Assembly (NCBI RefSeq): GCF_009828835.1
Contig: NZ_WTTB01000001.1
Location: 62,001 to 126,000 of the forward strand
Length of the DNA: 64,000 nucleotides
Reading direction: 5' to 3'
Source: Erysipelothrix urinaevulpis
GTDB taxonomy: Bacteria; Bacillota_I; Bacilli_A; Erysipelotrichales; Erysipelotrichaceae
The notes below the pieces were generated by a model. The model was not told where the DNA came from. It did not search any database and was given only the letters and a program-made list of their open reading frames with translations. Both the position numbers and the translations under genes were made by a program. Within the stretch, counting starts at the first letter, position 1. The number at the start of each line of letters is the position of its first letter. Of the stretch, positions 40,245 to 46,014 are shown one piece after another.

Positions 40245-41093
40245 TTATATTTTTTTGAAATACTGTAAGGCAATCGTACCAATACCAACATGTGCTGAAA
40301 CAGTAGAAATTAAAGGGATTCTAACGACTTCTGTTTTAGGGAAAGTTTCCTTTAGGAGCTTTTCCATTTGAACAGCATCTTTCTCGTTATCCACGTCCGC
40401 AAGTGTTATTTGGTAATTCTCATCGACTCCTTCTTCTTCAAAGGCAGTTACAACACGTTCTAATGCCCGAGACATGGTTCGTACTTTATCAAAAGGATCG
40501 ATAATCCCCTTTGTCGAGCGATCAAGGTGTAAAATAGGTTTAATTCTTAATAGCCCACCTAATTTTGCTGCAAGTGGCGAAAGTCTCCCTCCTGCAGATA
40601 AGTGTTTTAAATCATCTGGGATAATAAACGTGTTGCTGTGATCAACGATATCATTAAGTATCACTTTCACTTCATCGACTGTATGGCCATCATTTAAAAG
40701 ACGACGAGCAGTTAAACCACAATACAATTCAATGTGCATGGTTGTAAAACAATCAAAATAATCAAAGGCAATGTCAGCAAACGATGCTGCACTAATCATG
40801 GCTTGAATTGTTCCGGATAATCCTGTTGTGATGGGAATTGCTAGGATTTGATCATACCCATCATCCTTAATTTTTTTAAATAAGCTTTCGATTTCTCCTA
40901 AGATAGGCAAAGAAGTCTGAACACGAATTCCCCGTCTCATTTTATCGTTGACCTCATCGACACTAATTTCAATGCTTTCCAAATATGATGTTTCCCCTTC
41001 AATAATTTGGAGTGGTATCGCATAGAGACCAGCCTGATTAATTCCTTCATTAAAATAATTACTACCACTATCAACTACAATTGCTGTTTTCAT
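40245..41093 (-). CDS. DegV-family fatty-acid-binding protein
   Basis: A 282-residue DegV/FakB protein. The family binds a fatty acid in a two-domain fold and presents it to the kinase FakA for incorporation into phospholipid. Visible marks: VDSGSNYF at the N-terminus, TSLPILGEIESLF where the TSxPS-type fatty-acid-contacting serine lies, ITTGLSGTIQ, and DDLKHLSAGGRLS. It is the second of two adjacent DegV genes; no FakA gene is in the window. A perfect inverted repeat lies just before its -10. Confidence 0.88.
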   Translation of the reverse strand: MKTAIVVDSGSNYFNEGINQAGLYAIPLQIIEGETSYLESIEISVDEVNDKMRRGIRVQTSLPILGEIESLFKKIKDDGYDQILAIPITTGLSGTIQAMISAASFADIAFDYFDCFTTMHIELYCGLTARRLLNDGHTVDEVKVILNDIVDHSNTFIIPDDLKHLSAGGRLSPLAAKLGGLLRIKPILHLDRSTKGIIDPFDKVRTMSRALERVVTAFEEEGVDENYQITLADVDNEKDAVQMEKLLKETFPKTEVVRIPLISTVSAHVGIGTIALQYFKKI

Positions 41094-41113: not shown

Positions 41114-41141
41114 ATTATACATTAGTTTCTATAAACTAATG
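41114..41141 (-). promoter_or_regulatory. -10 box with perfect inverted repeat upstream
   Basis: Minus-strand TATAAT (41114-41119) directly follows a perfect 9-bp inverted repeat CATTAGTTT/AAACTAATG (41120-41141, 4-base loop), which also covers the stop codon of the upstream degV gene. The repeat has no T run, so it is not a terminator; it may be an operator or an RNA hairpin. Confidence 0.55.
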
Positions 41142-42001
41142 TTATCAACATCTAGCGCCCATTGCAATGCTACTGTATGCAATCCTGCATGACTTGATAA
41201 CGCTGCAGGTAGAACTGTAACAGTGAATTTAAAATCACCGATTTTTTCACGAATCTGTTTGATTAACTCTTCCACAACACGATCGGCCTCCAAATGAGGT
41301 AAGTATAAAACATGTTCTTGTGGATTAATATTGTTCTTTTTTAAATCATTGATAATTTCATCAATAAGTTTTTGTTCAGTTCTAGTTGTCTTGAACTTAT
41401 CAATCGTATCACCATGATTACTTAACTTTAATAAGACTTTAATTTTCAGCATAGATGCTAACGTCGCAGCAGGCTTTGATATACGCCCCCCTTGCTTTAG
41501 CTGTTCCAAATTTTCAGGATAAACATAAGATTCAGTATTTTTAAAGAAAACATTGTCTAAGTAATCAGTAATCGCTTGAGGTTCCCAGTGGTTCTCATTT
41601 AAAAATCTGATATGTTTAATTGCTTCTTGGACTGGTCCAGCAAGAGATTGAGTATCAATTAAACTTAAATTATCGAGTTGAACTTCATTTAAAGCGTATT
41701 GAAATGAAGCGTAGGTTCCAGACAAACTCGAAGTTAAACTTAATACGAAAATATGATCGTAGTCTTTTTCTTTAACGTTGTTTAAAATATTAATCATCGT
41801 TCCTAAGTTTGGTTGAGATGTTTTTAAACTTACTTTGTTCCGAATTAATTCACTGACTTCTTCATGGCTAATATCAATTTGATCGGAAAATTCTTTGTCA
41901 CTGTGAATAATGGTGAGTGGAGCAATGTAGATCCCCATTTCATTTGCTTGTTTTTGTGTTAATGCGACTGATGAGTCACAAATGATTGCTATATTTTTCA
42001 T
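41129..42001 (-). CDS. DegV-family fatty-acid-binding protein
   Basis: A 290-residue FakB-type protein, paralogous to its downstream neighbour. Marks: ICDSSVALT, TSQPNLGTM with the fatty-acid-contacting serine region, LTSSLSGTYAS, ENLEQLKQGGRIS. The start at 42001 is chosen over 42052 because GGAGG then lies seven bases upstream and the promoter's -35 covers 42047-42052. Two FakB proteins in one organism often differ in fatty-acid preference; which one binds what is unknown. Confidence 0.9.
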   Translation of the reverse strand: MKNIAIICDSSVALTQKQANEMGIYIAPLTIIHSDKEFSDQIDISHEEVSELIRNKVSLKTSQPNLGTMINILNNVKEKDYDHIFVLSLTSSLSGTYASFQYALNEVQLDNLSLIDTQSLAGPVQEAIKHIRFLNENHWEPQAITDYLDNVFFKNTESYVYPENLEQLKQGGRISKPAATLASMLKIKVLLKLSNHGDTIDKFKTTRTEQKLIDEIINDLKKNNINPQEHVLYLPHLEADRVVEELIKQIREKIGDFKFTVTVLPAALSSHAGLHTVALQWALDVDNISL

Positions 42002-42023: not shown

Positions 42024-42052
42024 ATTATACAGCTAATTACTTTGACTGTCAA
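42024..42052 (-). promoter_or_regulatory. Consensus sigma-A promoter of the degV pair
   Basis: Minus strand: exact TTGACA (42047-42052), 17-base spacer, exact TATAAT (42024-42029). It should be a strong constitutive promoter. Confidence 0.9.
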
Positions 42053-42087
42053 AGGAATAACTTAATGCTTTACATCTAAACAATATC

Positions 42088-42132
42088 AATTCATAATGAA
42101 TTCATACGAAATTCATAGCAAGTCTATATACT
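42088..42132 (+). promoter_or_regulatory. Three direct repeats and promoter of the two-component operon
   Basis: AATTCATA occurs three times at 42088, 42099 and 42110, an exact 11-base period, the spacing used by tandem OmpR-type response-regulator sites. A -10 (TATACT, 42127-42132) follows with no good -35; the repeats occupy that region, as in an activated promoter. Transcription would start near 42139. Confidence 0.7.
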
Positions 42133-42149
42133 TTTTTTAGGAGGTTAAG

Positions 42150-42818
42150 ATGATTAATATACTCTATTTAGAAGATCAGAAACATATACGAGAAGTTACC
42201 CATGAGTATTTAAAAACACAAGAGTACAAAGTTTCTTTAGCATGCACTGCTACAGAAGCGATCGAACTTTTAAACCTTAAATCTTTTGATTTAGCGATTT
42301 TAGATATCATGGTTCCAGAAGGGTCTGGGATTGATGTCTTGAAAATAATCAGTGAATCTTATCCTTCAACAAAGGTTATTATGCTCACTGCACTTGGGGA
42401 TGAAAACCAGCAAATTGAAGCCTTTAATTATTTTGCAGACGACTATATTATTAAACCCTTTTCTCCCATTATTTTACTAAAAAGAATTGAGGCGATTTTA
42501 CGACGAGGCAACGCTGAACTTATTACTGAAGGTTTGTACAAGTCAAATGATGCTTATCAAGTTTTTTATAATAAAGTATCCTGTGATTTAACGATGACTG
42601 AGTTCATTATTTTCGATACACTGTCAAATTATCCTCAAAAAGTGTTTACACGACCAGAGTTATTGGATGCTATTGATCCTGATAGCTTAATGGTAAGTGA
42701 TCGTGTCATCGATGCTCATATAAAAAATTTGCGAAGGAAATTACCCCTTAAACTTATCAAGACGGTAATTGGCTTAGGATATCAATATCAGGAGGATGGC
42801 GATGAAATTATCACGTAA
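42150..42818 (+). CDS. OmpR-family response regulator
   Basis: A 222-residue regulator. The receiver domain has the acidic pocket (YLEDQ), phospho-acceptor aspartate in LAILDIMVPEGSG, the conserved threonine in VIMLTALGD and the lysine in YIIKPFSP. The C-terminal winged helix has TMTEFIIFDTL, RPELLDAI, RVIDAHIKNLRRKL and GLGYQY. GGAGG precedes the start. It overlaps the sensor kinase gene and probably autoregulates through the repeats upstream. Confidence 0.94.
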   Translation: MINILYLEDQKHIREVTHEYLKTQEYKVSLACTATEAIELLNLKSFDLAILDIMVPEGSGIDVLKIISESYPSTKVIMLTALGDENQQIEAFNYFADDYIIKPFSPIILLKRIEAILRRGNAELITEGLYKSNDAYQVFYNKVSCDLTMTEFIIFDTLSNYPQKVFTRPELLDAIDPDSLMVSDRVIDAHIKNLRRKLPLKLIKTVIGLGYQYQEDGDEIIT

Positions 42819-44364
42819 AGTTTTAATCTATACCACCATAACAACATTTATTGCTGGAAGTATGATTATTGTGTATTTTGTCTTTCTATTACCTGGACTT
42901 TATATTGACTACAAAACACAACGTTATCTTGATAATATTCTTAATCTGCATACTGCGATTCAAACTGAGGAAGCATGCCAAGCTAATGTAGACGATATGT
43001 TTATGCTAACAAGTTTTAAACTGTACAAAGAAGGCTACGCAATTGATGTTTGTAATCAATATTTCTCAACCACCCTTACGATTGAGGATCCTGTTTTAAG
43101 ACAAACCTTTGATGAGATACGTATGGTATTTGACGGTAATGAATTTGAAGACAGTCAAGAAATTTTCAATGCAATTGATTTTAGTCAAGCGAAGAAAAGG
43201 CTAGAGAGTTTTGCGGAAACATCCCTAATTAGAAGTGAAAACATGAAATTTAATCACAGTTTTATTCAAGAAAATACTGTTAGTGAAAACTTTCGAATCA
43301 ATAATCAAGGTTATGCAATTATAAGTAGTAAAGTTCATGATGCAACCAATCAATACATTAATTACAGTGTGTTTAATCAGAAGGATGATGTATTTTATAT
43401 CACTGTAGCCTCCGCGATGACACCAAAATTACAAGAATTGATGCCGATAATCTTAATGAGTACACCCATGATTATGGTATTGCTTTTGTTGTTTGCGATG
43501 GTAACAGCAAAAGTATTTAGTAAAATGTTAGCAACCCCAATTGAAACGTTAGCCAGTCAAGCACGACATCGTGATGATTCAAAAGACTTTGTTTTTAAAC
43601 AAAAGAGTAACGATAAGGAATTTGTAATTTTAGAAGATGCTTTGAATACGATGCATCATGATTTACTGATGCTGATAAACTCTTATCAAGAGCAAAACAA
43701 ACAATTAAGCATGGAAAAAGAGAAACAGGATATCTTTATTATGAACGCATCTCATCAACTAAAAACACCGATTGCGAGTGCTAACTTGTTATTGGAAGGA
43801 ATGATGGGCAAGGTGGGCCCTTATAAGGATGTGGAAGCTTATCTTCCGATAGTTCAAACAGAAATAATCCGTATGAACACACTCGTCGAAGCGATGTTAA
43901 TGACGTATCAAGATCAAAGCAATGAAAATCAAAAAGAAGAAGTGATTGTGAATCAAGTGATTGAAGTATTGTTAGAAAAACTAAACCAGCAAATCATTCA
44001 TAAAAAACTTGAGATTGCTATAGAAGAAGAGCAATCAAAAATCATGACCGACCCTCAATTCTTTTCAACAATCGTTGAAAACATCATATTAAATGCAATA
44101 AAATACACAGAAATCGGTGGAAAAATTGAGATAAAAATAAATAAAAACAATCTAATAATTACAAATCTAAAATCATCAATTAATGAAAAAATCATAGACT
44201 ATATAACCTTACCATTTGTAAAAGATAACCATCAACAAGATAGTACAGGAATTGGTTTATATTTGGTGGATACATTTGTGAATATGTTAGAGATGAACTG
44301 GAGTATTAAAAATACTGATGAAGGTGTTACTGTGACACTGAACTATAAGGAGAATAATGTATGA
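42802..44364 (+). CDS. Sensor histidine kinase
   Basis: A 520-residue membrane kinase. First helix at residues 7-30 (IYTTITTFIAGSMIIVYFVF), then a ~185-residue extracytoplasmic sensor domain containing two cysteines (EEACQ, DVCNQ) that could form a disulfide, a second helix near 215-240, a HAMP-like linker, the phospho-acceptor NASHQLKTP, and an ATPase domain (NIILNAIKY, GIGLYLVDTF). Start at 42802 is preferred because GGAGG is then six bases away; an ATG at 42796 is too close. It feeds the ABC exporter genes downstream. Confidence 0.92.
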   Translation: MKLSRKVLIYTTITTFIAGSMIIVYFVFLLPGLYIDYKTQRYLDNILNLHTAIQTEEACQANVDDMFMLTSFKLYKEGYAIDVCNQYFSTTLTIEDPVLRQTFDEIRMVFDGNEFEDSQEIFNAIDFSQAKKRLESFAETSLIRSENMKFNHSFIQENTVSENFRINNQGYAIISSKVHDATNQYINYSVFNQKDDVFYITVASAMTPKLQELMPIILMSTPMIMVLLLLFAMVTAKVFSKMLATPIETLASQARHRDDSKDFVFKQKSNDKEFVILEDALNTMHHDLLMLINSYQEQNKQLSMEKEKQDIFIMNASHQLKTPIASANLLLEGMMGKVGPYKDVEAYLPIVQTEIIRMNTLVEAMLMTYQDQSNENQKEEVIVNQVIEVLLEKLNQQIIHKKLEIAIEEEQSKIMTDPQFFSTIVENIILNAIKYTEIGGKIEIKINKNNLIITNLKSSINEKIIDYITLPFVKDNHQQDSTGIGLYLVDTFVNMLEMNWSIKNTDEGVTVTLNYKENNV

Positions 44365-45230
44365 TAACAATAGAAGAATTAAATGTGTATTACAAAGACT
44401 TTCAAGCCCTTAATATTTGTGAAAAAATTGAAATAAAAGAAAATGATCGGATTGGTTTAATTGGTTCGAACGGTGCAGGAAAGACGACGTTTGTGAAAGC
44501 GTGTTTGGGATTAATACCCTACAATGGGCTCATCACAACCAACGTAAAACCCGAAGAAATGTCAGTTCACATGCAGCAAAACAATTATGTCGATACGATG
44601 GCCACTCGTCATATTTTAGAAACAATTTTAAAAACAAAAATTAAAGAGAATGTAAAATTACAAGAACTCATTTCATTCTTTGAATTTGAAAAGCAATTAA
44701 GTCAAAAATATAAGACTTTATCAGGTGGACAAAAGCAAAGATTCACGTTAATTATGGTCTTAATGCAAGACGCACCCATTACTTTTTTTGATGAAGTTAC
44801 GACAGGTCTAGACTTTGAAACCCGTCAAGCTTTAATAGAAAAAATATTAGCCTGGTACCAAGGAAAGAATACCTCGATTATTTTTATTAGTCATTATTAT
44901 GAAGAATTAGAAAAACTAACCAATAAATTATTGATCCTTGATAAGGGGGAAGTGATCGCTTTTGGAGAACGTCGTCAACTGTTTGAGAAATATTGTGGTC
45001 AATCAGTCATATCCTTTGATCAAGACGCTTTAACGAAGATTGATACTAAGTCATTTAACCACTTAAAAGCCCAACAAGGACTATGTGCAATATCCTGTAA
45101 AAATTTAGAAGAAGAATTAAGTTTAATTAAGATGCTATCCAATGCGAATATTAATTATAAACGAAGTAACAATGACATTGAGTTATTAACAATCAATGCG
45201 CTAGGAGTCTATCATGAAACAACTCATTAA
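44361..45230 (+). CDS. ABC transporter ATP-binding protein
   Basis: A 289-residue ATPase. Walker A is GSNGAGKTT, the signature is LSGGQKQR, Walker B is PITFFDEVTTGLD, and the switch histidine is in FISHYYEELEK. It overlaps the kinase gene by four bases and the permease by 17, so the sensor system and transporter form one unit. Two-component plus ABC operons of this kind commonly handle antimicrobial peptides or lantibiotics; the substrate here is unknown. Confidence 0.92.
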   Translation: MITIEELNVYYKDFQALNICEKIEIKENDRIGLIGSNGAGKTTFVKACLGLIPYNGLITTNVKPEEMSVHMQQNNYVDTMATRHILETILKTKIKENVKLQELISFFEFEKQLSQKYKTLSGGQKQRFTLIMVLMQDAPITFFDEVTTGLDFETRQALIEKILAWYQGKNTSIIFISHYYEELEKLTNKLLILDKGEVIAFGERRQLFEKYCGQSVISFDQDALTKIDTKSFNHLKAQQGLCAISCKNLEEELSLIKMLSNANINYKRSNNDIELLTINALGVYHETTH

Positions 45231-45972
45231 ATATGAATTTAGAAATCTACTCGGCAATTTCTTTGGTATTTTCTTTGGGATTGCATTTCCAATTCTGATG
45301 ACAAACATTCTTCATCCTGTCATCATGTCAAAAGTACCAGAAGCTGCACAAGGTAGTGCAAGTGTTCAAATATATATTACAAATTTACTCATGGTTCCAT
45401 TAGCAATGATGTTTGTCGGGTTTTCAGCATTATTCTCCCAAGAACTGGAAAACGATGTAACCATTCGGATGCAATTATTTGGCATTAATGAGTCACAGCA
45501 AATGAAAGCCAAGATGGTTGCTCAAGGTCTTTCTGTTGTAGTAGGAATAAGTATCTACTCCTTGTTTACATTACCCATACTAAACTTACCCAAACCAACA
45601 ATTTTTGCGGTTATTTCGTTAGTTATTGCCATTATCATATTATCAATCATCTTGTTTATTTTATCGTTCTCAATTGCCTTGTTAGCAAAAAAATTCAGTG
45701 TGACTTATGGCATTACCATGACTCTTTATTTTGGTATGATGGTTTTTTCAGGGATGATGGGGATCGAGACACAAGATTTACCCAAAGTTTTTCAGTATAT
45801 ATCCAAAGGATTTCCAACCTCGTTTATTGTGAGTGATTTCAAAGAAGTGTGGACGTTAACAAGTTATAATTTCGCTCCTTTAATTCAATCCTTACTGTTT
45901 TTTGGCGCTGTTAGCGGATTAGTTTGTTATGGAGCTCTAGCACAAAGAAAAAGAAAATTAGAAAATTTTTAA
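45214..45972 (+). CDS. ABC-2 type transporter permease
   Basis: A 252-residue membrane protein with six helices, typical of ABC-2 export permeases; the first is LLGNFFGIFFGIAFPILMTNIL. It is encoded in the same four-gene operon as the two-component system and the ATPase, and is its last gene, followed by a terminator. Confidence 0.88.
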   Translation: MKQLIKYEFRNLLGNFFGIFFGIAFPILMTNILHPVIMSKVPEAAQGSASVQIYITNLLMVPLAMMFVGFSALFSQELENDVTIRMQLFGINESQQMKAKMVAQGLSVVVGISIYSLFTLPILNLPKPTIFAVISLVIAIIILSIILFILSFSIALLAKKFSVTYGITMTLYFGMMVFSGMMGIETQDLPKVFQYISKGFPTSFIVSDFKEVWTLTSYNFAPLIQSLLFFGAVSGLVCYGALAQRKRKLENF

Positions 45973-45999
45973 GGGGAAGCAAATGAATGCTTCCTTTTT
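45971..45999 (+). terminator. Terminator of the two-component/ABC operon
   Basis: AAGGGGAAGCA/TGCTTCCTTTT stem with a 6-base loop and a T run. Confidence 0.85.
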
Positions 46000-46014
46000 A
46001 TTAAATCGTCACGT

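Follow-up and report, generated by a model that had tools for sequence, protein, structure and literature searches.

Tandem 11-bp repeats as a putative operator of a two-component and ABC transporter operon in Erysipelothrix urinaevulpis

A four-gene operon for a response regulator, a histidine kinase and an ABC transporter, found in a 64,000-nucleotide stretch of Erysipelothrix urinaevulpis DNA (the window), is preceded by three exact direct repeats of AATTCATA with a period of 11 bp (42088–42095, 42099–42106 and 42110–42117). We regard these repeats as a putative operator (42088–42117, + strand) of the operon's own OmpR/PhoB-type regulator, and class II activation leading to positive autoregulation is the probable mode of control. 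The repeats are kept in related bacteria and are therefore very probably the regulator's own control sites, and their fixed distance to a conserved −10 hexamer is consistent with the regulator activating the operon that encodes it. We infer the binding protein, the dependence on phosphorylation and the positive sign from the anatomy and geometry of the promoter. The feedback circuit would be of an ordinary type and the operator of an established sort. A sequence-only reading of the window had proposed tandem OmpR-type sites before a regulator–kinase–ABC operon, with positive autoregulation and a motif by which a regulon could be searched. The tandem sites at this operon stand, as they are kept at all eight orthologous loci at a fixed distance from the −10, and the reading was probably right on autoregulation; the regulon motif did not hold up.

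The repeat array and the promoter

The three copies at 42088, 42099 and 42110 are exact and evenly spaced by 11 bp, as had been claimed. Lone copies of AATTCATA occur in the window at chance frequency (10 found against 10.2 expected), and the unusual feature of the array is its regular spacing and not the abundance of the single word. It is the sole non-simple 8-mer in the window to appear in three copies at a single spacing in the range 9–25, and no such spaced triple was found in 60 dinucleotide-shuffled windows or in 3000 shuffled intergenic regions. The array ends at 42117 and the spacer and −10 occupy 42118–42132. The −10 hexamer TATACT (42127–42132, + strand), 9 nt downstream of the TTCATA in the last repeat, matches the consensus at five of six positions; it is followed by a ribosome binding site, AGGAGG (42139–42144, + strand, read directly), and by the ATG start codon of the regulator at 42150. 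A −35 set by a 17-nt spacer would lie at 42104–42109 and read ATACGA, a match of only 2/6 to TTGACA, and therefore the earlier description of the repeats as replacing the −35 region is a fair one. The layout is thus of the class II (pho-box-like) kind, with repeats over the −35 position, a weak or absent −35 (checked in the window alone) and a fixed distance to the −10. A weaker alternative, TTCATA (42101–42106) and TATATA (42125–42130) at 18 nt with 4/6 matches each, is absent from the list given by the promoter-pair scan. A further promoter-like pair, TTTACA-17-CATAAT (42069–42097, + strand, 10/12), which the sequence-only reading does not mention, overlaps the first repeat and is a possible alternative start of the operon judged by its sequence, although promoter-like pairs in the scanned region are at chance level (20 found against 21.3 expected).

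The operon and its orthologues

The operon encodes, in order and with gene ends overlapping the next starts, an OmpR/PhoB-type response regulator of 222 aa (42150–42818; Response_reg, PF00072, and Trans_reg_C, PF00486), a histidine kinase of 520 aa (42802–44364; HisKA and HATPase_c), an ABC transporter ATP-binding protein of 289 aa (44361–45230) and an ABC-2 type permease of 252 aa (45214–45972; PF12698, barely above the cut-off), all on the + strand. The kinase ORF as listed has 522 aa and begins at 42796; we place its start at 42802, probably the correct one, because the residues that it gives as M1 and K2 do not vary in an alignment of the eight orthologues. A hairpin (core stem 45975–45981/45988–45994) followed by TTTTTATT at 45975–46002 (+ strand; −13.2 kcal/mol, z −3.72) is likely to be the intrinsic terminator of the four genes on the strength of its predicted fold; the predicted stem also includes part of the T run, and a consensus terminator scan did not list this hairpin. 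The gene adjoining the array thus supplies a regulator with receiver and winged-helix domains, as the tandem-operator class requires. Among NCBIfam models the regulator scores highest against PhoB (TIGR02154), but its 151.8 bits are about half the cut-off of 296.2 bits, and by this measure it is no PhoB equivalog of the phosphate regulon. An AlphaFold2 model of the kinase from eight sequences was weak (mean pLDDT 69.9, pTM 0.38), and its best 50 Foldseek rows were histidine kinases, fragments of them or kinase-like proteins. A search by title of the literature on two-component and ABC transporter systems of Erysipelothrix and the Erysipelotrichaceae found no description of the operon.

Full-length relatives of the kinase (E <= 1e-40) were sought in 272 genomes of the family, and orthologous operons were found in eight of them, the window's included, in three genera; five of the eight lie in the window's own genus, for which 13 congeneric genomes were searched. 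Gene labels outside the window were assigned by similarity to the window genes, and kinases by Pfam. At all eight loci the kinase is flanked by the regulator on its 5′ side and by ATPase and permease ORFs on its 3′ side, and identity to the window proteins is 26–40% for the kinase and 46–60% for the regulator. A D-R..DAH.KN.R.K stretch in the DNA-binding domain, which we take to be the recognition helix, is invariant among the eight regulators. The DNA farther upstream differs among most of the loci (it is alike in G249 and G250), the neighbour being a divergent DegV gene in the window, an XRE-like ORF (labelled from its sequence) in G003 and other sequence elsewhere.

TTCATA-N5-TTCATA lies before the regulator gene at all eight loci, with 12/12 letters at five and 11/12 at three (G012, G249 and G250), and at least two direct repeats of about 11-bp period are therefore present at each. 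Counted from the start codon, the pair lies at −48 to −50 at seven loci and at −63 at one, and its shuffle p per locus is 0.0002–0.0074. As G004 and G007, and G249 and G250, are close pairs, the eight loci amount to about six independent cases; in a scan of every 6-mer at spacings of 7–25, no pair other than TTCATA at period 11 occurred in all six lineage groups. G000, G003 and G007 have a clear third copy upstream, and G004 has one with a single change; all four are congeneric. A TATAAT-like T....T hexamer begins exactly 9 nt downstream of the last copy at 8/8 loci (TATACT, TTTAAT, TATACT, TTAAAT, TTAAAT, TACACT, TACACT and TACTCT), whereas at the other offsets from 0 to 19 such a hexamer occurs in at most four; the summed match to TATAAT at +9 is 34/48, the highest of the 20 offsets, with 26 for the runner-up. 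In the mechanism that we propose, the kinase would sense a signal and phosphorylate the regulator, whose monomers would line up head to tail along a single face of the DNA, each on its own 11-bp repeat, with the two downstream repeats as the conserved core and the upstream copy adding occupancy. In place of the missing −35, the bound regulator would then recruit sigma-70 RNA polymerase to the −10 located 9 nt beyond the last TTCATA, and the operon would thereby raise its own expression. The predicted operator, with its half-site ATTCATA, its period of 11 and its 9 nt to the −10, can serve to mark the same system elsewhere.

Regulators of the OmpR/PhoB family are described as binding direct repeats of 11-bp period head to tail (PMC4415409). 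The array resembles the E. coli pho box of phoA and phoB in being made of such repeats. In E. coli K-12, 11 nt separate the TCA of the second half-site from the hexamers that we take to be the −10 of phoA and phoB, as many as in the window, and E. coli phoB is positively autoregulated. The half-sites differ, being mostly CTGTCAT in the pho box and ATTCATA in the window, and unlike the pho system the window operon encodes an ABC-2 transporter for which no phosphate link was found. The PhoB site at E. coli phoB is given as TTTCATAAATCTGTCATA, one half of which contains TTCATA (PMC10294691). A search of the literature for HssR together with GTTCATATT found nothing. The HssR repeat is GTTCATATT-N2-GTTCATATT, which contains TTCATA at 11-bp spacing. 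For Bacillus anthracis, a direct repeat for HitR at hitPQRS is reported that is related to that of HssR at hrtAB, and hitPQRS is a two-component system and ABC transporter operon whose expression follows its own regulator (PMC3968170; PMC7790381). By analogy in operon makeup and direct repeat, hitPQRS would be the nearest functional parallel among the systems compared; the gene order differs, the window operon being regulator-first. Arrays of ArcA boxes in E. coli are also comparable: of 158 sites, 92 are reported to have three to five direct repeats and 66 to have two, with a centre-to-centre spacing that is mostly 11 bp (PMC3798270). ArcA, however, is a global regulator whose sites keep no conserved position, whereas the window array has a fixed position relative to the −10 and an exact pair that is unique in its genome.

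Other readings of the repeats

The second promoter-like pair leaves room for repression, as its CATAAT lies inside the first repeat and the pair scores 10/12; the same regulator on the same operator would then act mainly as a repressor (or with both signs) by blocking this upstream promoter. We consider this unlikely, given that such pairs occur in the scanned region no more often than chance predicts and that, by eye, an overlapping CATAAT is found in only two of the eight orthologues (G000 and G003) against a downstream −10 at +9 in every one. That a different transcription factor, another OmpR-type protein or an unrelated one, binds the repeats and controls the operon is improbable. The genome does contain seven matches to the OmpR-type DNA-binding domain, counting that of this regulator, and sites can be shared between related regulators, as in the cross-regulation reported for HssR and HitR (PMC3968170), but the site accompanies the operon at 8/8 orthologous loci (three with one mismatch) and the window's genome has no other exact pair. 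Promoters of other OmpR-type regulators served as controls: four of the operon-bearing genomes contain 51 OmpR-type DNA-binding domains, and of 30 of these loci examined, 28 remained as controls once the orthologues L139 (the window operon) and L136 (G070) had been excluded. TTCATA-N5-TTCATA was matched at 12/12 in none of the 28, at 11/12 in one, at 10/12 in four and at 7–9 in the remainder; the single 11/12 match (L130) adjoins the ribosome site and has no −10-like hexamer at +9. The remaining reading, that the array is a functionless product of chance or of neutral AT-rich tandem duplication, is very hard to credit: the chance frequency of lone copies of the word would allow it, yet no such triple arose in the shuffles, and the conservation of the pair in 8/8 promoters with fixed phasing to the −10 strongly disfavours it. 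The preferred reading therefore remains a tandem operator of the operon's own regulator. The promoter of another OmpR-type regulator in G003 (L140, about 990–1010) carries TTCATATGAAGTTTCATA, the same word at a 12-bp spacing.

Further sites and the neighbouring genes

The regulon motif offered by the sequence-only reading has led to no regulon so far: a scan of the window's own genome (1.91 Mb searched, 92.8% complete) gave the exact pair only at this promoter. With up to two mismatches allowed, TTCATA-N5-TTCATA matched that genome 714 times and its reversed control 616 times, numbers too large for the matches to be read; for AATTCATA-N3-AATTCATA at the same tolerance both counts were 17. In the 13 congeneric genomes, ATTCATA-N4-ATTCATA with up to one mismatch gave 52 matches. 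Eight coincide with these operators, which leaves 44 elsewhere against 39 found with the reversed control. Of 26 of these 44 that were inspected, 23 overlap an ORF of at least 70 aa, and the three that do not (L045, L062 and L069) are in G002, G005 and G010, genomes that lack the operon. Exact matches number seven, six at operators and one within an ORF (L065). A looser pattern that includes the −10, TTCAYA-N5-TTCAYA-N9-T....T with up to one mismatch, gave 198 matches in the 13 genomes against 118 in the reversed control, an excess that counts against a simple background reading; spaced words of this class are therefore not rare. A similar excess appears in the five genomes that bear the operon (85 against 52) and in the eight that do not (113 against 66), and it is therefore not ascribed to this regulator; in the window's own genome the same pattern gave 14 matches against 14, no excess. 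L144, L149 and L151, matches that recur between genomes, were rejected as operators as they lie within similar long ORFs, and L157, near the operon of G004, was rejected as it overlaps the start of an ORF. No convincing further target was found in the window's own genome or the 13 congeneric genomes, and a wide regulon built on the TTCATA word is made unlikely; further targets with weaker sites, or in the portion of the own genome that the sequence lacks, may exist. A regulon of one is a tentative thought: the operon's own promoter might be the sole high-affinity chromosomal site, and sensor, regulator and transporter might make up a closed and portable feedback module, passed on by inheritance or exchange in one block together with its operator, as its presence in 8/272 family genomes with mostly different neighbours would allow. 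The genus-wide excess of the looser pattern makes this reading slightly less likely. One further site, L148 (about 1501–1532; G002:C1:1572843–1572874), reads TTCATA-N5-TTCATA with T....T at +9 in a genome without an orthologous operon, and is flanked by a 457-aa ORF and the gene for a distantly related kinase (27% identical in a partial alignment); from its sequence context it could be a related system with its site at the next gene, or chance.

A pair of adjacent DegV-family genes (40245–41093 and 41129–42001, − strand) lies before the operon. The one that diverges from it (a DegV-family gene by Pfam) has a perfect sigma-70 promoter, TTGACA-17-TATAAT (12/12; 42024–42054, − strand), with its −35 within a palindrome, CTTTGAC-T-GTCAAAG, that resembles the FabT site ANTTTGATTATCAAATT. 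A FabT-type site has been predicted before degV/fakB4 of Streptococcus pyogenes (PMC10138225). A search with the palindrome pattern allowing up to two mismatches gave 106 matches against 64 in the control, and six places had at most one mismatch, of which the DegV promoter and AGTTTGACATTCAAACT are the suggestive two. This second palindrome (L104, 1501–1513, and L175, about 2100; G000:C11:232599–232611) lies just 5′ of an acyl-carrier-protein-like ORF and 3′ of a FabH-like ORF, in an apparent cluster for fatty-acid synthesis (names taken from the sequence), and the two palindromes together suggest that a FabT-like regulon exists here.
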